Source: Thermodesulfovibrio thiophilus DSM 17215
GTDB lineage: Bacteria > Nitrospirota > Thermodesulfovibrionia > Thermodesulfovibrionales > Thermodesulfovibrionaceae
Assembly (NCBI RefSeq): GCF_000423865.1
Contig: NZ_AUIU01000002.1
Coordinates: 1-38,675, forward strand
Reading direction: 5' to 3'
Length of the DNA: 38,675 bases
Position numbers and translations under genes: made by a program. This document shows positions 29,277-38,670 of this stretch, in pieces. Position 1 is the first letter of the stretch; the number at the start of each line of letters is the position of its first letter. Below the pieces are notes generated by a model. The model saw nothing but the letters and a program-made list of their open reading frames with translations, was not told where the DNA came from and did no database searches.

Positions 29277-30068
29277 GTGAGATTTAAAGTTTTTTTTAAA
29301 ACTGACAAACTTCCAATACTTTACAGACAGAGATTTATGGCTCTGATAAAAGAGATACTTTCAAAACAGAGTCCTGAATACAAAAAAATTCTTTATCCAG
29401 ATCAAGGTTTTTCCCATTCAAAAAAAGTAAAGCCCTTTACATTCGGGATTTTAATGCCTCCTCAAAGAAAATCTGTTAAAGAAAAAATATTCATAGATGA
29501 AAAGACAGCAGTTGAGGATATAGTTTTTTATTTTCCCCATAACTCTTATATTTCTTTTTTAATAAGCTCTATTGATTACGAATTTATAATTAATCTTTAT
29601 AACGGCCTTATTGAAGAAAAAACTTTTAATTTTGGAAATGGTATAACCCTTGAATATAATCGAACATCTTTAATCAGAGAGAAAAAGATTGATCATGATG
29701 AAGTTATTTTTAAAACAATCTCTCCAATCTTAATTGAAGATGAGCAAGAAAAACCTGTTTTACCATTCAAAAATAACCTCGAGAGTTTTAATTTTCATCT
29801 TAATGCAATTCATGATCGAATTTTCAAAGATATCCGTAAAAAGGGACTTTCAAGACTTCTAAAGTTTGAACCTCTTCAGATAAAAAAGTCCGTAGTAAAA
29901 CACACACTAAGCGGGTTCAGACAGCAAACAGGAAAACCTTATATGATGCTTACATGCTTTGAAGGCTGTTTCAGAGTAACAGGAGATAAAGAAGATTTAT
30001 CTCTCCTTTATCAAATGGGCATAGGCTTGAGAACAGGTCAGGGATTTGGCATGGTGGATGTGGTGTAA
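29277..30068 (+). CDS. cas6: CRISPR repeat endoribonuclease Cas6
   Basis: Cuts pre-crRNA within the repeats. 263 residues of the Cas6 RAMP family: an N-terminal ferredoxin-like half and a C-terminal half ending in the Gly-rich loop GIGLRTGQGFGMVDV. His47 and Lys52 (FSHSKKVKPF) lie where the catalytic His and Lys of archaeal Cas6 occur, so the enzyme is probably active. The GTG start is forced: the two upstream ATGs in the same frame are each followed by a stop within four codons. First gene of the cas operon. Confidence 0.9.
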   Translation: MRFKVFFKTDKLPILYRQRFMALIKEILSKQSPEYKKILYPDQGFSHSKKVKPFTFGILMPPQRKSVKEKIFIDEKTAVEDIVFYFPHNSYISFLISSIDYEFIINLYNGLIEEKTFNFGNGITLEYNRTSLIREKKIDHDEVIFKTISPILIEDEQEKPVLPFKNNLESFNFHLNAIHDRIFKDIRKKGLSRLLKFEPLQIKKSVVKHTLSGFRQQTGKPYMMLTCFEGCFRVTGDKEDLSLLYQMGIGLRTGQGFGMVDVV

Positions 30069-30115: not shown

Positions 30116-31744
30116 ATGAAACATAAACTTTATTTGAGAGATTGGTATTTTAATGCTGGAATAATAGGATTTTTAACGATTGCAGCTGATGGTAAAGAAA
30201 TCTATAGTCTTCCATCATTGACAGTTGGTGAAAACTACATTGAGTTTGATAACGAGATTTTTGATAGTTTTGAAGATAAGTTTATCAAATATGGATTTCT
30301 AAAATTTTTTAATATCCAGGCGTATCTCCAGAGGATACAAAAAGTCTATAAAGAATTAACTGACAGCAAGTCAAAGATTACAACAGAAAAGATTGCTAAA
30401 AAAATTGAAGAGATTGAAAAGCCACCATATAAAGATTTTCTTAAATTGCTGGATATTCCAATAGAAGGATATCAGACTGTGGAAGATTTTCTTTACAATC
30501 TTGAAAATACCAAAACTATAATAGAATCTTTGCCTAAAGAAGAGATTTATAATATATTGAGTAGCACTGATAAAGGCAAGGAATCACTGAATGGTTTTGT
30601 AGAATGGAGATTTAAAGGTGTTTGTTCACATGACAGCATCTCAGAGTATATAAATAAAATTAAGAATACGAATCTACTAAAGAAGCCCAAAAATAACGAC
30701 CTTTGTATATCCTGTCAGGAAAGAAAGGCAGAATATGAATTTAATAATGCTGTGTCCAATATTATTGGTTTCAACAAGGATAATGCCAACTGGATATGGG
30801 GGTTTAAGGCATCAAAACTGAAGATATGCCCATTATGTGCAATTATCTATAACTGTGCCTTTGTATCTTTTGTCTATGTTCTTAAGAAGGTTGAAGGAAA
30901 TTATCTGAATTATTTCTACTTTCCAAACGAAGATACAGAAGTAAAAACATTATTCGAGACAGTCACGAAATTTAATCTTATGCTTGATAATATTCAAGAT
31001 AGCAGCAATCCACTATATTCAATGATTAAACAGACTGTAGAACATATAGTAGCAAAACAAATAAAGAGTATTATAGAGAATATCAATTTTATAGAGATTG
31101 CTGACAATCCCATACTGGCAGGGCAAAGCTCAAAAGGCTATAATATCTACAATTACAATATCAGTCTTGATTTAGCTGAATTTCTTGATTCGCAGTTTAA
31201 AGCAAACAGTATTCCAAAAGGATCCTATGTAATAAGGAATACCCACTACAACATTGAGGAAGAGATCTTAAAGCTTGCAATTCAAAGACAGATTGATTAT
31301 TCAGTTCTGAATAGCTATTTTGCTTATTCATTGAATGCAGACAAATATTTAGCCAAATATAATCTAAATAAAATAATAAAATTTGTATTTGGATATATTC
31401 AAATGATGAGAGGTGAAACGATGGGAAAAAGCGAAAAAATAATAAGTAAAGGATTTAAAAGTGGTATTAGCCTTCGTAATGAACTATTAAAAAAAGACAA
31501 AGAAAATCAAATCAACGGATTGGTTTATGGTTTTCTAAATGATCTGAAGATAGCAGATAGAGAAAAGTTCCTTGACAAATACATCAGAGCAATAATGTCT
31601 CATAGTCTGCCGAATCTATTTGGAAAGGAAGAAATGCTTGACAAAGATTGCTTTTTACAGTTTGGCTACTCATTTGTGAATGGGCTGATGAGTAAAGGGA
31701 TAAAGGAAAGTGAAGATAATTTAAATGAGGAGGATTTGGTATGA
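30116..31744 (+). CDS. cas8b: Type I-B Cascade large subunit Cas8b (Cst1 / CXXC-CXXC type)
   Basis: 542 residues. Two zinc-finger-like pairs, CISC (C197, C200) and CPLC (C238, C241), are the mark of the Cst1 (Cas_CXXC_CXXC) family, the large subunit of the Tneap variety of type I-B Cascade, expected to recognise the PAM. The N-terminal LYLRDWYFNAGIIGFLTI also fits the family. Its end overlaps cas7 by four bases. The 47-nt gap after cas6 has only a weak purine-rich ribosome site. Confidence 0.88.
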   Translation: MKHKLYLRDWYFNAGIIGFLTIAADGKEIYSLPSLTVGENYIEFDNEIFDSFEDKFIKYGFLKFFNIQAYLQRIQKVYKELTDSKSKITTEKIAKKIEEIEKPPYKDFLKLLDIPIEGYQTVEDFLYNLENTKTIIESLPKEEIYNILSSTDKGKESLNGFVEWRFKGVCSHDSISEYINKIKNTNLLKKPKNNDLCISCQERKAEYEFNNAVSNIIGFNKDNANWIWGFKASKLKICPLCAIIYNCAFVSFVYVLKKVEGNYLNYFYFPNEDTEVKTLFETVTKFNLMLDNIQDSSNPLYSMIKQTVEHIVAKQIKSIIENINFIEIADNPILAGQSSKGYNIYNYNISLDLAEFLDSQFKANSIPKGSYVIRNTHYNIEEEILKLAIQRQIDYSVLNSYFAYSLNADKYLAKYNLNKIIKFVFGYIQMMRGETMGKSEKIISKGFKSGISLRNELLKKDKENQINGLVYGFLNDLKIADREKFLDKYIRAIMSHSLPNLFGKEEMLDKDCFLQFGYSFVNGLMSKGIKESEDNLNEEDLV

Positions 31745-32661
31745 ATGAAAACAAATATCTACATCTTGCAGTAGTTTTTAAGGCGTCAAACTTAAATTAT
31801 GGTGAAGGGGTGGGGAATATTCTGACACTTAAAAAGGTTACTACAGAAGGTAAAAACTACTCGTATATAAGCAGACAGGCTTTAAGATATGATATTGTTA
31901 GGATGCTTAAGGAAATGTATGGATATAACCTCGCAGAAGTGAATAAAGACGCAGGTGTTATCCAATTTGCGACGGGGGCGACGATTCAAGATTTTCCAGA
32001 AATAGATTTTTTTGGTTATATGAAAACTAAAGACAGTAATAAAATTAGAAAGGCTGTGGTCAGACTTACAGATGCTGTCAGTCTTGAGCCTTTCTATAAC
32101 GAATTAGAATTTGGAACAAACAAGGGACTCGCAGATAGAATACCCAATAATGTTGGCAATGATATCTTTCAGGCAGAGATTCACCGTTCTTATTACTCTT
32201 ATACGATAACCTGTAATCTTGATGAAATAGGGATTGATCCAATTGACAAAATTGAACTTTCTAATCATGAAAGGGCTGAAAGGGTTAAAAATCTACTCAA
32301 TGTAATTAAACTCCTCAATAGAGACATTAGAGGCAAGAGAGAAAACCTTTCTCCATTATTTGTTTTGGGTGGACTTTATGATGTTGGAAATCCCTTCTTT
32401 TACAATAGGATAAAACTTTCATTTACAAAAGATACGGTTCTGCTCAATGAAAAGCTCATTAATGATACCCTTGCTATTAAGACTTTGCAAAAATCTGTTG
32501 AAGACCAGACGATGTTGGGTTATCTTAATGGTGAGTTTTCGAATATTGAGGATATAAAAATAAATCACTCTGAAAAATTTTCTATAGAAGAATTTTTTGA
32601 AAAACTTAAAAATAAAATTGACAATTTTTATGGTATCCAACATGAGAACAGTAAGGGTTAA
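31741..32661 (+). CDS. cas7: Cascade backbone subunit Cas7 (Cst2/DevR type)
   Basis: 306-residue RAMP protein that binds the crRNA spacer as a helical filament. The N terminus (HLAVVFKASNLNYGEG...ITLKKVT-like segment, then SRQALRYDIVRML) and the middle FPEIDFFGYMKT followed by RKAVVRLTDAVSLEPF match the Cst2/DevR family. GAGGAGG precedes the ATG, which overlaps the cas8b stop as ATGA. Ends 20 bases inside cas5. Confidence 0.9.
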   Translation: MNENKYLHLAVVFKASNLNYGEGVGNILTLKKVTTEGKNYSYISRQALRYDIVRMLKEMYGYNLAEVNKDAGVIQFATGATIQDFPEIDFFGYMKTKDSNKIRKAVVRLTDAVSLEPFYNELEFGTNKGLADRIPNNVGNDIFQAEIHRSYYSYTITCNLDEIGIDPIDKIELSNHERAERVKNLLNVIKLLNRDIRGKRENLSPLFVLGGLYDVGNPFFYNRIKLSFTKDTVLLNEKLINDTLAIKTLQKSVEDQTMLGYLNGEFSNIEDIKINHSEKFSIEEFFEKLKNKIDNFYGIQHENSKG

Positions 32662-33352
32662 ACTTTACCAGAATTTTGTTAATTATAGGAGAGAGCTAAG
32701 CTATGGCTATGTTCAGACATATCCGCTTCCTACCCCTTCTATGGTTAAAGGCATGGTTCATGCTCTGCTTGATCTGGACAAATACCATAATCTCAGAATA
32801 TCCATACAAGGCAATTATGAATCTGTTGTAACAAATATGCAGAAGGTCTATAAGTTTGATAGAGACAGAGCCTCAAGACCAAACAATCCCTATGATGTTG
32901 TGGTCGGAAATTCTAATAAAACTGCCACGCATGGCATTATGTTTGTTGATGAAATTGTGGATATGCAACTTCTTCTCCATATTTCTTTTGATGAAGAAGA
33001 CTTAAATGAAAAACTCCTTGAGGCTGTAAAACAGAAGACAGTTATTTTGGGTAGAAACGAGGATATTGCCCGTGTGGACATTGAAGACACAGGGCTTGTA
33101 GATATTTTCCCCTCTAATGATGAATATAGGCTTTTATATAACATATATCTCAGACCAGAGATTTGCAAAAGTGGAAGGTTAGAAGGGACATATTACAGAC
33201 TACCGTTTTATTATGAACCTGTCAGTTCATTTAGCGATAAGAGGATATTCAAATATGTTGACGTTGTTTATATTGCAAAAGGCAATAAAATCGAGTATTC
33301 AGACATTATTCTTGATAAAGATGGGTACTTGGTAAGTTTTCTCTCAATCTAA
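32642..33352 (+). CDS. cas5: Cascade subunit Cas5 (Cas5t)
   Basis: RAMP protein that binds the 5' handle of the crRNA. The start MRTVRVKLYQNFVNYRRELSY is typical of Cas5t, so the ATG at 32642 is chosen over an in-frame ATG 45 nt upstream that would add cas7-overlapping residues. YPLPTPSMVKGMVHALLDL is the conserved Cas5 helix. 236 residues. Overlaps cas7 by 20 bases; the cas3 start is one base beyond the stop. Confidence 0.88.
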   Translation: MRTVRVKLYQNFVNYRRELSYGYVQTYPLPTPSMVKGMVHALLDLDKYHNLRISIQGNYESVVTNMQKVYKFDRDRASRPNNPYDVVVGNSNKTATHGIMFVDEIVDMQLLLHISFDEEDLNEKLLEAVKQKTVILGRNEDIARVDIEDTGLVDIFPSNDEYRLLYNIYLRPEICKSGRLEGTYYRLPFYYEPVSSFSDKRIFKYVDVVYIAKGNKIEYSDIILDKDGYLVSFLSI

Positions 33353-33353
33353 A

Positions 33354-35546
33354 ATGGCTGTTTACGCTAAATCAAATCCCGCTGAAACTATTGAAGAACA
33401 TAATAGAAAATTGCTTGAAAATTATGAAAAGCTGAAAAAATTTCTTGATAGAGAAAAGATCCAAAAATATGATGAAATTATTAAAAAGATCCTTTATTAC
33501 CATGACCTCGGCAAACTAAACCATAAATTTCAGAACAAGCTTGGATTATCCTCAAAGGTCATAATTCAAGAGTTAAAAGGTTTTGACGAAATCCCTCATG
33601 AATGGTTATCCATAGCGTTTCTCTCAAAAGAAGACAAAAGATATTTTCATACATTTAGCACAGATGGTGTTTTCTTTGCGGACCTCGTCCAATACTGCAT
33701 TGCATTTCATCATTCAAGGACAAAGCCTTTTGATAAAAAGGCCCTTGAAATGACAATCCGTCATGACCTTGAAAAAAATAAATACAAACTCGGGATAAGC
33801 TATCCCTTGAATTCTGACTATGACATAAATAAGGATATAAAACAAAAGATAGAATCTCAAACAAACTTTAAAAATTATTTCGAACTATTAGTCTTTTTAA
33901 AAGGAATTTTACATAAATGCGATTACACAGCCTCTGCTGATATCGAACCTGAGAAAAACTATGATGGTAACTATGAACTGGATTTCAATAATTGGGTATC
34001 TCAACAGGGTTGGCAGCTTAAACCGTTCCAACACGAGGCAAAAAGGCTTAGAGATAAGAATGTCATCTTAATTGCAGCAACTGGTTCAGGAAAGACAGAG
34101 TATTCTATGAACTGGATAAATGGAGAGAAGGCATTTTATCTTCTGGGACTGAAGACAGCTGTAAATGAGATGTATAGGAGATTTAAAGATATTTTTGGAA
34201 ACAACGTTAGCCTTTTGCATGGAGAGATCAGCTATATGCTTGAAAATAACGAGGCAGATGAAAGCTATATTGAAAGGATAGAAACGGCAAGAAAGTTCTG
34301 CGCTCCAATAACCATTGCAACTGCTGACCAGCTTGTTCCAGCAGTCTTTAAATATAATGGATTTGAATTGCCTTATCTGACTGCATCTTATTCAAAAATA
34401 GTAGTCGATGAGATACAGAGCTTCTCTCCAGACTCTATAGCAGCAATAATGGTTTTTCTTAGCGAAATACATAGGGTTGGGGGTAAATTCCTTTTAATGA
34501 CTGCAACGCTCCCACCTTTTATAAAAGATGAATTGAAAGGATTTCAGGATATAGAATTTCCTGAACAAGAGCTTCCACCAACAAAAAGACATAAGATAGC
34601 GGTGTATAATGAATATATTCATAACGATTCTTCATTAACACTGATCGAAAAAGAATTTCAAGCAGGTAAAAAGGTATTGATTGTTTGCAACACTGTCAAA
34701 AGGGCCCAAGAGATGCATGAGGTCTTACTGGATCTTAGCCCCTTATTGATACATTCAAGGTTTATTTTAAAAGATAGAAGGAAGAAAGAGAGCAACAAGT
34801 TTGGAATAATGGCTATTAATGATCCCACACATCCACCTGCAATCTGGATTGCAACACAAGTTGTGGAAGCAAGTCTTGATTTAGATTTTGATGTCTTATT
34901 TACAGAATGTTCTCCTATAGACAGCCTACTCCAGCGATTTGGGCGCTGCTGGAGAAAAAGAAACAAAGAATATGAGGACAATGAACCAAATATCTATATT
35001 TTTAAAACTGAACATACACGGGTTTATGATAGGGAACTGCTTGACAGAACCTATTCCCTGCTTTTGGCTGACTATAACGGTAGGATTATGGACGAGACGA
35101 CCAAACAAAATGCAATAGTTATGGTTTTCAAGGATATTGAGAAAACAAAATATTATGAAAAATACAGACGGAATAAGGAATTGCTTGAATTGGGCCTCAG
35201 AGCGAGTTCAAGGGTTGAGGCCGAAGACCTTTTCAGAAACATTTTTTTTAATTATTGCGTTATCCCGCGCCCTGTGTATGAAAAAAATGAAAGAGAAATA
35301 ACCGCATTGTTAAAAGATATTGACAGTAAAAACGTTGAAAAAATGCAACGCATTCAGGCAAAAAGTAAATTGAAGGAATTCACCGCTCCTGTTCAAATAT
35401 TTAATCATCCTAAATGTTTATCTCCGGTTGCAGATTCGGAATATTGCAGGAGAAATAATATAATGATAATGAACGATGTAACATATTCTTATGAGAAGGG
35501 GCTTGAGCTGACAGACAAAGAAGGAGAAGGTGTATTAGTCTTATGA
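33354..35546 (+). CDS. cas3: Cas3 helicase-nuclease
   Basis: 730 residues, single-chain HD nuclease plus SF2 helicase that unwinds and degrades target DNA after Cascade binding. HD part: H16, H50-D51 (YYHDLGK), H82, H119-H120 (AFHHSR). Helicase: AATGSGKTE (K247), VVDEIQ (D352-E353), MTATLPP, ASLDLDFDVLFTE and LLQRFGRCWRKR. All catalytic motifs are present. The N terminus begins MAVYAKSNPAETIEEH, so the HD domain starts at once. A 48-nt gap with its own ribosome site separates it from the ERCC4 gene. Confidence 0.96.
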   Translation: MAVYAKSNPAETIEEHNRKLLENYEKLKKFLDREKIQKYDEIIKKILYYHDLGKLNHKFQNKLGLSSKVIIQELKGFDEIPHEWLSIAFLSKEDKRYFHTFSTDGVFFADLVQYCIAFHHSRTKPFDKKALEMTIRHDLEKNKYKLGISYPLNSDYDINKDIKQKIESQTNFKNYFELLVFLKGILHKCDYTASADIEPEKNYDGNYELDFNNWVSQQGWQLKPFQHEAKRLRDKNVILIAATGSGKTEYSMNWINGEKAFYLLGLKTAVNEMYRRFKDIFGNNVSLLHGEISYMLENNEADESYIERIETARKFCAPITIATADQLVPAVFKYNGFELPYLTASYSKIVVDEIQSFSPDSIAAIMVFLSEIHRVGGKFLLMTATLPPFIKDELKGFQDIEFPEQELPPTKRHKIAVYNEYIHNDSSLTLIEKEFQAGKKVLIVCNTVKRAQEMHEVLLDLSPLLIHSRFILKDRRKKESNKFGIMAINDPTHPPAIWIATQVVEASLDLDFDVLFTECSPIDSLLQRFGRCWRKRNKEYEDNEPNIYIFKTEHTRVYDRELLDRTYSLLLADYNGRIMDETTKQNAIVMVFKDIEKTKYYEKYRRNKELLELGLRASSRVEAEDLFRNIFFNYCVIPRPVYEKNEREITALLKDIDSKNVEKMQRIQAKSKLKEFTAPVQIFNHPKCLSPVADSEYCRRNNIMIMNDVTYSYEKGLELTDKEGEGVLVL

Positions 35547-35594: not shown

Positions 35595-36668
35595 TTGATA
35601 GATATGACAACCCTTTACATTCTTGAATCCGTCAATAGCGAGAAATTTCCTTATCGTCTGACTATCAGACAGGGAGATAAGTTGTTACTTGCTCTCAGAG
35701 TGCAGGATAAATGGCCTGGACAAAAAGGCAATATCTTCTGTATCAGAGAAGAAAATCATGAACTTGAACCACCTGTGAAAGAAATTGAGAGAGTTCCCGT
35801 CATTTCCCTAAAGCGTTTTGGTAAAAGGCTCGCTATTGTCCTTGATAGATCTATAAACAAAAGATGCGATTTTTTATTCCTGAAAAAGAAGTATAAAACC
35901 AGAGAAGGAGAATACGAACAAATATTCTGGAGGACTCAAAGAGGACTAACAGAAAGAAAGCCCAGAGTTAAACTCTCAACTTATCATAAAGGCATGGTTC
36001 ACGTAATAATTGATACAAATGAAAGATATCCCTGGCGATTTCCTAAAGATAGTATTGAGAAAGCTAAACTGCCTGTAGGAGACTATGCTTTAAAGGTACA
36101 TGACAGAATTCTTGCTGTGGTCGAGAGAAAGACCTTTGAGAATCTTCTCGCAGAATTTGGTAGGATGGCAATATTTCATCAACAGCTTGGGGAACTTTCA
36201 ACATATAAGTATTCAGCTCTTGTTATTGAAGCAAATTATTCAGATTTTTTAAATCTTTCTAAGTTGAAATTTTATAATCCTTCATTCGCGGCGAAGGCAA
36301 TTGGTGAGCTGTATGCCTTGCATCCAGACATTACCATAGTGTTTACTGGAAATCGCAAGCTTGCAAATGAATGGACTTATAGATTTTTTGATGCCATAAA
36401 CGCTCATGAAAATGATCTTCCTAATGAAACAATTTCGGAAATAATAGAAAAATACGATGCATCTTCAAAGACAAGAAGAGATGCTTATTTTGAGATAAAA
36501 AAGAAAATTATCAACAACCTGCCACCAGAGTTTACACTTTCTATGATAGAACAACTGTTTCCAGATACACCATACACAACCATCAAAAAGGTGATTAATG
36601 ATCTCAGAAAAGAGGGTGTTATTGAAAAATATGGCAAAGGAAAGAAGAGCTATTGGCAGAAGATATAA
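35595..36668 (+). CDS. Predicted ERCC4/XPF-family nuclease with C-terminal winged helix, inside the cas operon
   Basis: 357 residues. Residues 1-130 are beta-rich, not recognised. Residues 135-270 follow the ERCC4 nuclease fold: IIDTNE (D140, E143), VGDYAL (D163), AVVERKTFENLL (E177, R178, K179, then N183 where ERKx3D has Asp), and RMAIFHQQL. Residues 305-357 (LSMIEQLFPDTPYTTIKKVINDLRKEGVIEKYG) resemble a winged-helix DNA-binding domain. The start is probably TTG, five bases after GAGGAG; ATG at 35604 is possible. The end overlaps cas4 by 16 bases. It is not a standard cas gene that I know. A role in adaptation, or as branched-DNA nuclease, is inference from position. Confidence 0.8.
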   Translation: MIDMTTLYILESVNSEKFPYRLTIRQGDKLLLALRVQDKWPGQKGNIFCIREENHELEPPVKEIERVPVISLKRFGKRLAIVLDRSINKRCDFLFLKKKYKTREGEYEQIFWRTQRGLTERKPRVKLSTYHKGMVHVIIDTNERYPWRFPKDSIEKAKLPVGDYALKVHDRILAVVERKTFENLLAEFGRMAIFHQQLGELSTYKYSALVIEANYSDFLNLSKLKFYNPSFAAKAIGELYALHPDITIVFTGNRKLANEWTYRFFDAINAHENDLPNETISEIIEKYDASSKTRRDAYFEIKKKIINNLPPEFTLSMIEQLFPDTPYTTIKKVINDLRKEGVIEKYGKGKKSYWQKI

Positions 36669-37177
36669 TTGATATAATTAATTTTCAATCTTTAAAAACT
36701 ACTGGAATTAAGGTCAATTACCTTTATGTCTGCGAACGGAAGCTATGGCTTTTTGACAGAGGCATCCAGATGGAGTCTACGTCTGATAAGGTCTTGATAG
36801 GAAAGCTGCTCGGAGAAGATTCATATCCAAGGGAAGAGAAGAGGGATATGATGATTGATAACCTTATAAATATAGATATTGTCGGTAATAACGAAATACG
36901 GGAAGTGAAATATAGCAACAGGATGTATAATGCAGACAGGATTCAATTGCTCTATTATCTCTATTACCTGAAGCAGCTCGGAATAGAAAAAAAGGGCATT
37001 ATAAACTATCCAAAGATGAGGAAGCGGGAAGAGATAATCTTGACAGATGATGGTGCAAGAGAGGTTGAGGCAGCACTGGTGCGGGTGAAGGAGATTGTAG
37101 GCATGGATAAGCCGCCTGAGTTGCAAAAAAAACCTTACTGCACAAAGTGTGCATATTATGAATTCTGCTTTGGATAA
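36653..37177 (+). CDS. cas4: CRISPR adaptation exonuclease Cas4
   Basis: RecB-like Fe-S nuclease that trims prespacers and helps select PAM-flanked DNA. 174 residues: C27 in YVCERKLWLF, D75, the E84-x-K86 pair in REVKYS, Q98/Y101-Y102 in QLLYYLYYL, and C163, C166, C172 in CTKCAYYEFC for the [4Fe-4S] cluster. The expected histidine in the 'GKLxHE' position reads GKLLGED (G54), so motif I seems altered. The start is TTG, within the ERCC4 gene end; alternatives lie shortly downstream. Confidence 0.9.
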   Translation: MAEDIIDIINFQSLKTTGIKVNYLYVCERKLWLFDRGIQMESTSDKVLIGKLLGEDSYPREEKRDMMIDNLINIDIVGNNEIREVKYSNRMYNADRIQLLYYLYYLKQLGIEKKGIINYPKMRKREEIILTDDGAREVEAALVRVKEIVGMDKPPELQKKPYCTKCAYYEFCFG

Positions 37178-37180
37178 AAG

Positions 37181-38158
37181 ATGAGAAACTACTACATATT
37201 CTCAAATGGCAGGATAAGACGTAAAGAAAATACCGTGTATATCGAAAATGAACAGGGCGAAAAAAGGGCTATACCTATTGAGGATATTGATACCATACAT
37301 GTCTTCGGAGAGGTTGATCTAAATACAAAACTACTCAATTTCCTTGCCCAGCAAAATAAAATTGTGCATTTTTATAATTATTATGGTTTTTATTCAGGAA
37401 GTTTCATGCCGAGGGATAGAAATGTTTCTGGAGAACTCCTTGTGAAACAAGTAGAATATTACCTTGATAATGAAAAAAGATTCTACCTCGCATATTCTTT
37501 TGTAGAAGGTGCCACATTTCACATTCTGAGAAATTTAAGAGAATATAAAAATACAGAGAATTTTCAGGAAAAAATAAGAACTGAAATGATAAAAGCATTA
37601 GAAACTAATACAATTAACGAGTTAATGGGATGTGAAGGAAGAGCGAGAGATATATATTATGAAGCTTTCAATGTGATACTGAAGCCAGAATTTTTTATAG
37701 ACAAAAGACAAAAAAGACCCCCAACAAACCCAATAAATGCTTTAATTTCTTTTGCAAACAGCATGATTTATTCCACAGTGCTTTCTGAGATTTATCACAC
37801 ACAGCTCAATCCAACCATAAGTTATCTTCACGAGCCCAGACAAAGAAGATACTCTTTAAGCCTCGATATTGCAGAAATCTTTAAACCTCTAATCGCAGAT
37901 ACAATTATTTTTAAGTTGGTAAACAATAACATGCTCAAAATAGAAGATTTTGAAGAAGATGTCAATTACTGTTATCTAAATAATACAGGAAGAAAAAAAT
38001 TCATCAAAGAGTTTGACCAAAAACTTGCCACTACTATAAAACATAGAAAATTAAAACGACATGTGTCTTATAGAAGTCTGATAAGATTTGAATGTTATAA
38101 ACTTATAAAACATCTGATAAATGATGAGCTATATAAACCATTTAAAGCATGGTGGTGA
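37181..38158 (+). CDS. cas1: CRISPR integrase Cas1
   Basis: Integrates new spacers into the array with Cas2. 325 residues of the type I-B clade. The metal-binding residues are present: E152 (MGCEGRAR), H217 (SYLHEPRQRRYSLSLDIAE) and D229/E232. N-terminal beta domain starts YYIFSNGRIRRKENTVYI. Three bases separate it from cas4. Confidence 0.97.
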   Translation: MRNYYIFSNGRIRRKENTVYIENEQGEKRAIPIEDIDTIHVFGEVDLNTKLLNFLAQQNKIVHFYNYYGFYSGSFMPRDRNVSGELLVKQVEYYLDNEKRFYLAYSFVEGATFHILRNLREYKNTENFQEKIRTEMIKALETNTINELMGCEGRARDIYYEAFNVILKPEFFIDKRQKRPPTNPINALISFANSMIYSTVLSEIYHTQLNPTISYLHEPRQRRYSLSLDIAEIFKPLIADTIIFKLVNNNMLKIEDFEEDVNYCYLNNTGRKKFIKEFDQKLATTIKHRKLKRHVSYRSLIRFECYKLIKHLINDELYKPFKAWW

Positions 38159-38160
38159 TT

Positions 38161-38427
38161 GTGCCCTATTTAATCGTTACTTATGATGTTGGCGAAGAAA
38201 GAGTGAATAAAGTAAGAAAAATTTTAAAAAAGTATTTCATGTGGGTGCAGAATTCTGTTTTTGAAGGAGATATTACAGAAGGAAAGTTTTTAAAATGCCG
38301 AATTGAACTTGAAAAAGTCATAGATAAACAAGTTGACTCAATTTATTTTTACACTCTCGAAAACAGACTAAATTACCGAAAAACAATTCTGGGAATTGAA
38401 AAAGAATTAACAGAGAACATATTTTAG
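38161..38427 (+). CDS. cas2: CRISPR adaptation protein Cas2
   Basis: Small ferredoxin-fold dimer that bridges two Cas1 dimers. MPYLIVTYDVGEERVNKVRK carries the conserved Asp after the first strand, and FMWVQNSVFEGDI is the family's second signature. The GTG at 38161 is preferred because Cas2 proteins begin directly with this strand; an in-frame ATG at 38149, within the cas1 end, would add four residues. 88 residues. Last gene before the leader. Confidence 0.93.
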   Translation: MPYLIVTYDVGEERVNKVRKILKKYFMWVQNSVFEGDITEGKFLKCRIELEKVIDKQVDSIYFYTLENRLNYRKTILGIEKELTENIF

Positions 38428-38641: not shown

Positions 38642-38670
38642 GTTTCATCTGAACCATGTGGGATATAAAT
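38642..38670 (+). CRISPR. Probable first CRISPR repeat, array cut by the window end
   Basis: A 29-base segment beginning GTTTCATCTGAACC and ending GTGGGATATAAAT directly after the leader. It has the layout of the 29-30-base type I-B repeats of clostridia, which start GTTTTAT and end ATGTAAAT. Only this one copy and five further bases are in the window, so the repeat length cannot be fixed from repetition. A 5' crRNA handle of AUAUAAAU would follow from Cas6 cutting eight bases before the spacer. Confidence 0.75.

Follow-up and report, generated by a model that had tools for sequence, protein, structure and literature searches.

A type I-B CRISPR-Cas operon of Thermodesulfovibrio thiophilus DSM 17215 was found to carry, between cas3 and cas4, a gene for a protein with an ERCC4 nuclease fold and a conserved core, which is co-inherited with the adaptation block of the operon through exchanges of the effector genes and is present in only some related operons. 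From these properties we infer a nuclease activity, its substrate and its step of action, and tentatively propose, at a confidence somewhat short of even, that the protein is an optional XPF/Hef-like nuclease of branched DNA, situated where the effector genes meet the adaptation genes and most likely aiding adaptation. The stretch of DNA analysed, here called the window, is 38,675 nucleotides in length. The 357-residue open reading frame was verified at its position, with ATG 35604 as a possible other start judging from homologues. The operon and the domains of the protein are arranged as follows.

29277..30068, + strand: cas6
30116..31744, + strand: cas8b1/cst1
31741..32661, + strand: cas7b/cst2
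32597..33352, + strand: cas5b, from a TTG start; the real start is probably further downstream
33354..35546, + strand: cas3 (HD and helicase)
35595..36668, + strand: accessory gene for a 357-aa ERCC4-domain protein, after cas3 and before cas4
35607..35951, + strand: LigD-phosphoesterase-like eight-strand barrel (residues 5-119), without PE catalytic residues
35994..36410, + strand: ERCC4 nuclease domain (residues 134-272), with D140, E143, D163 and E177-R178-K179
36471..36665, + strand: C-terminal winged helix (residues 293-357), resembling the tail of a Fic (Fido) protein
36653..37177, + strand: cas4
37181..38158, + strand: cas1b (HMARI type)
38149..38427, + strand: cas2
38642..38669, + strand: first CRISPR repeat, GTTTCATCTGAACCATGTGGGATATAAA, where the contig terminates

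Gene order is cas6-cas8b-cas7-cas5-cas3-ERCC4-cas4-cas1-cas2, all on the forward strand, and the gene content (cas8b, cas7b, cas5b, cas3, cas6, cas4, cas1b and cas2, together with an array) fits type I-B, in agreement with the placement given in the original prediction from the sequence. The ERCC4 gene begins after a gap of 48 nt from cas3, and the 16-nt overlap with cas4 that had been described holds provided that cas4 starts at TTG 36653. Contig 18 of this genome carries further copies of the window's CRISPR repeat at array spacing, and no second ERCC4 protein is encoded in the 1.87 Mb of the genome.

The assignment of the domain to the ERCC4 family, first proposed by inspection, was borne out by a match to Pfam PF02732, which scored 34.5 bits over residues 154-264 (cut-off 24), and by an AlphaFold2 model of the protein (pLDDT 82.7), in which the nuclease domain of Hef (1j24) is the fold match with Z 15.2 and 2.1 A over 127 residues. 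The GDx(n)ERK core with its upstream D..E is present as D140, E143, G162-D163 and E177-R178-K179. Alignment of 39 homologues showed that E143, D163, E177, R178 and K179 are identical throughout and that D140 is almost invariant; these are the same residues that the original prediction had singled out. Likeness to XPF, Mus81 and Hef thus extends to the fold (Z 12-15) and to the IDxNE, GDY and ERK core residues. However, neither a helicase nor a helix-hairpin-helix pair was identified in the window protein, which adds a PE-like domain at its N-terminus, and where the orthologues of these enzymes have tandem helix-hairpin-helix motifs after the nuclease domain, the model shows a winged helix at residues 293-357, as had been suspected of this segment. 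A further difference is Asn183, which aligns with the last Asp of the ERKx3D motif of XPF and is also Asn in 37 of the 39 aligned homologues; because of this replacement, nuclease activity of the window protein is not assured. Hef was the only family named in an NCBIfam search, far under its cut-off. Purifying selection was evident between the Thermodesulfobacterium copies L005 and L029 (dN/dS 0.23), which argues that the gene is maintained by selection, and together with homologues of 43-75% identity in many phyla indicates that its presence is more than chance.

Along with the Asp-to-Asn change in ERKx3D, the original prediction had overlooked the N-terminal domain, which appears to resemble the 3'-phosphoesterase (PE, PF13298) of LigD in its eight-strand barrel. 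When the domain was predicted alone (pLDDT 88) and its fold matches were re-ranked with VIA-align, ranks 1-5 were taken by five solved LigD PE structures (Z 7.8-10.5), these five being all the solved PE entries found; 3p43 was the top match (Z 10.5), and the next unrelated structure reached Z 3.3. The PE likeness is visible only in this re-ranking: Foldseek with the N-terminal domain alone gave no significant match, hhalign of the domain against 25 LigD_N sequences returned a probability of 2%, and Pfam PF13298 found no match in the window protein. The catalytic set of LigD PE comprises His42, His48, Asp50, Arg52, His84 and Tyr88 (PMC8656161). No counterparts of these residues are present in the barrel, and a conserved His is absent throughout the N-terminal domain in the homologue alignment. 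Since the PE catalytic residues are missing, the domain, though PE-like in its modelled fold, is probably not a phosphoesterase; it probably serves to bind an end or a strand of DNA. Elsewhere the same genome encodes a LigD-type 3'-phosphoesterase that stands alone and scores well over the Pfam cut-off (G000:C9:101617-101922). At the other end of the protein, the winged helix has sequence likeness to the tail of a Fic (Fido) protein, and membership in a known defence family was considered and rejected, the lone PADLOC match being a weak match of this tail to SoFic.

Homologues were found at 47 loci in many phyla, and their occurrence is sparse, with five full-length copies in 346 Nitrospirota genomes and about eight full-length or near-full-length copies among 395 genomes from the phylum to which L014 belongs. 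The gene lies directly upstream of cas4-cas1-cas2 in six loci (the window, L003, L004 of Thermodesulfovibrio sp. N1, L005, L006 and L029), where it overlaps cas4 or stands a few bases from it. At L014 a very different, unrelated cas1-cas2 pair occurs just downstream, and at L002 a Cas3 tail, apparently a relic, precedes the gene. Cas linkage that recurs in several lineages, the original expectation, was therefore seen in part: adjacency recurs in at least two phyla, as for a CRISPR accessory gene, but approximately 40 of 48 homologous loci are without cas neighbours, as are three further loci examined, and the protein tree places the six cas-linked copies, with those of L002 and L015, in one supported clade (97/90), so that the main cas association may have arisen only once. 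The outcome named at the start as refuting the prediction, homologues dispersed away from cas genes, is thus half borne out.

This distribution bears upon the strongest rival to an adaptation role, namely that the protein is a stand-alone nuclease of defence or DNA repair, doing the same job as the solo copies, and simply occupies a cargo slot in the cas3-cas4 interval, where it gains co-expression but has no dedicated part in adaptation. Such an explanation is only a little less likely than the one we prefer, given that about 85% of the homologues are solo and that their neighbours are varied, a number of genes of defence or toxin-antitoxin type (HEPN-MNT pairs, a MADS-like mad3, RhuM-Fic) being among them. 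It accounts less readily for the single clade of cas-linked copies, which stayed with the adaptation block while effectors were exchanged, or for an xpf-like gene near adaptation genes in another subtype, I-G, reported in a published account considered below. No general partner of the solo copies was apparent, HEPN-MNT pairs or single members being near the gene in about five loci of several phyla (L002, L008, L011, L013 and L040). In three actinobacterial MAGs, the ERCC4 gene is followed by a large gene whose C-terminal part resembles mad3 (MADS) (L008:11195-14002).

The patchy spread of the gene across phyla, at 43-75% identity, could also be read as that of a selfish or mobile nuclease gene from which CRISPR gains nothing. 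Proteins of actinobacterial plasmids annotated as 'ERCC4 domain-containing', or in some cases as Lsr2, share 28-34% identity with the window protein over approximately residues 9-272, a match that takes in the PE-like and ERCC4 parts and leaves out the winged-helix tail. Their genes adjoin recombinase, transposase or toxin-antitoxin genes, and no annotated cas genes were present in the three neighbourhoods viewed. Nevertheless, the exact placement within six operons, the strong conservation among homologues, and the lack of any associated integrase, repeats or boundaries make a selfish gene the least probable of the explanations weighed here, and a very unlikely one. A relationship to viral proteins was considered and rejected: viral contigs yielded no relative, the only sequence match was a short ERCC4 one in a halovirus, and those viral fold matches that bear a name are themselves ERCC4-domain proteins.

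Comparison of sister operons revealed how readily the gene can be dispensed with. Sixteen loci with closely related Cas1 (66-83% identical to that of the window) have an ERCC4 gene in the cas3-cas4 interval in six cases, a DUF4143/AAA_14 ATPase in three, a UPF0149-SEC-C protein in two (one of them with a PIN gene), and nothing in the remaining five. Sisters whose Cas1 is about 80% identical and whose repeat is the same fill this position with a DUF4143 AAA ATPase, UPF0149 or PIN, or leave it empty, and in most of the sister systems the 28-nt repeat is identical or within a few mismatches. In a tree of Cas1 and Cas4 the contents of the slot are intermixed, and four changes are needed for ERCC4. 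That related operons replace or omit the gene shows that adaptation works without it, and makes it look like an optional helper and not a core part of CRISPR, as had been anticipated from the sequence. The acceptance of unrelated genes (DUF4143-AAA_14, UPF0149-SEC-C, PIN) in the slot is also consistent with a stand-alone nuclease carried as cargo. The ATPases are located at L072:3124-4335(-), L135:2838-3854(-) and L136:2720-4012(-), and the UPF0149-SEC-C proteins at L137:10485-11237(+) and L138:3686-4432(-). At L003 a short SEC-C open reading frame (265-486) is kept just upstream of the ERCC4 gene.

An association with the adaptation genes was seen in two Thermodesulfobacterium loci, L005 of T. 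thermophilum and L029 of T. hveragerdense. Between them cas6 (93% identity), ERCC4 (96%), cas4 (91%), cas1 (94%) and cas2 (99%) are closely similar, whereas the effector genes cas8, cas7, cas5 and cas3 share only 21-32% identity, which indicates that the effector was replaced and the ERCC4 gene kept. Because the gene stays with the adaptation genes when effectors are swapped, a role in adaptation is favoured. Known ERCC4 enzymes act on flaps, and this activity, with the position of the gene 48 nt after cas3, would suit a helper of interference that cleaves the R-loop flaps or branched products which Cas3 leaves behind. Across the set, however, the gene occurs with three Cas3/effector types, which disfavours a role tied to one Cascade or Cas3, and it is missing from operons with approximately 75% identical Cas3. 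A part in interference is thus improbable, and like the selfish gene it ranks below both the adaptation and the stand-alone readings.

A further constraint came from the arrays. The repeat-to-repeat unit averages 65.55 (sd 0.97, n=74) where the gene is present and 65.54 (sd 1.21, n=224) where it is absent (p=0.81), a comparison of spacer-plus-repeat length and not of acquisition rate or PAM. With unit lengths equal, the ERCC4 protein does not set spacer length, and it was rejected as a determinant of that length; the equality also speaks for the stand-alone nuclease. The protein could act earlier than the setting of spacer length, in making fragments, or later, in clearing flaps. The suggestion of an adaptation role in the original prediction therefore retains the support of co-inheritance with the adaptation block, and is weakened by sister operons in which the gene is missing or replaced by unrelated ones and by the equal spacer lengths.

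Under the preferred adaptation role, the PE-like barrel would hold a DNA end or strand and the winged-helix tail would bind DNA, while the XPF/Hef-type domain would act in adaptation by cutting DNA with branches or flaps. The cut might free fragments for use as prespacers from the branched source DNA that Cas3 leaves behind, or it might clear flaps around a half-integrated spacer. The gene would move as a unit with cas6, cas4-cas1-cas2 and the repeat while effector modules change. A fuller version of this scheme, in which the protein is a further adaptation nuclease that works with Cas4-Cas1-Cas2, binds ends by its PE-like barrel, generates or trims prespacers from branched DNA or removes the displaced flap where a spacer is half integrated, and passes between type I systems within the adaptation module, is rather unlikely.

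The association of ERCC4 proteins with adaptation is not wholly new. One report describes an uncharacterised 'xpf-like' gene (WP_012638991.1) in Thioalkalivibrio sulfidiphilus, where it lies in a type I-G locus between csb2 and cas4-1, together with toxin-antitoxin genes, and prespacer processing was suggested by its authors (PMC9638904), an independent precedent for the reading preferred here. Like the window gene it belongs to a type I locus and has Cas4-Cas1 close by, but the subtype is different. In the literature searched, from which most subscription journals were absent, neither type I-B operons with ERCC4 genes nor the PE-like fold of the family is described. In E. coli, prespacers are supplied by host nucleases (PMC9699676). 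For many type I systems the making of prespacers and the resolution of integration intermediates have yet to be explained, and a structure-specific nuclease whose gene adjoins cas4-cas1-cas2 and is passed on with them would be a directly testable candidate, for which sister systems with and without the gene offer natural comparison pairs. The combination of PE-like, ERCC4 and winged-helix domains, solo in many phyla, also points to an unstudied family of bacterial nucleases.

Two further variations in these operons were observed. The cas6-cas8 interval is a second variable slot, containing apparent toxin-antitoxin and regulator genes (L135:3332-3996, L137:3358-5010 and L136:3884-4743, with L135 and L136 in flipped-copy coordinates). 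At L005:11619-19208, type III-B (cmr)-like genes, as read from the sequences, lie between cas4 and cas1 and split the adaptation module.
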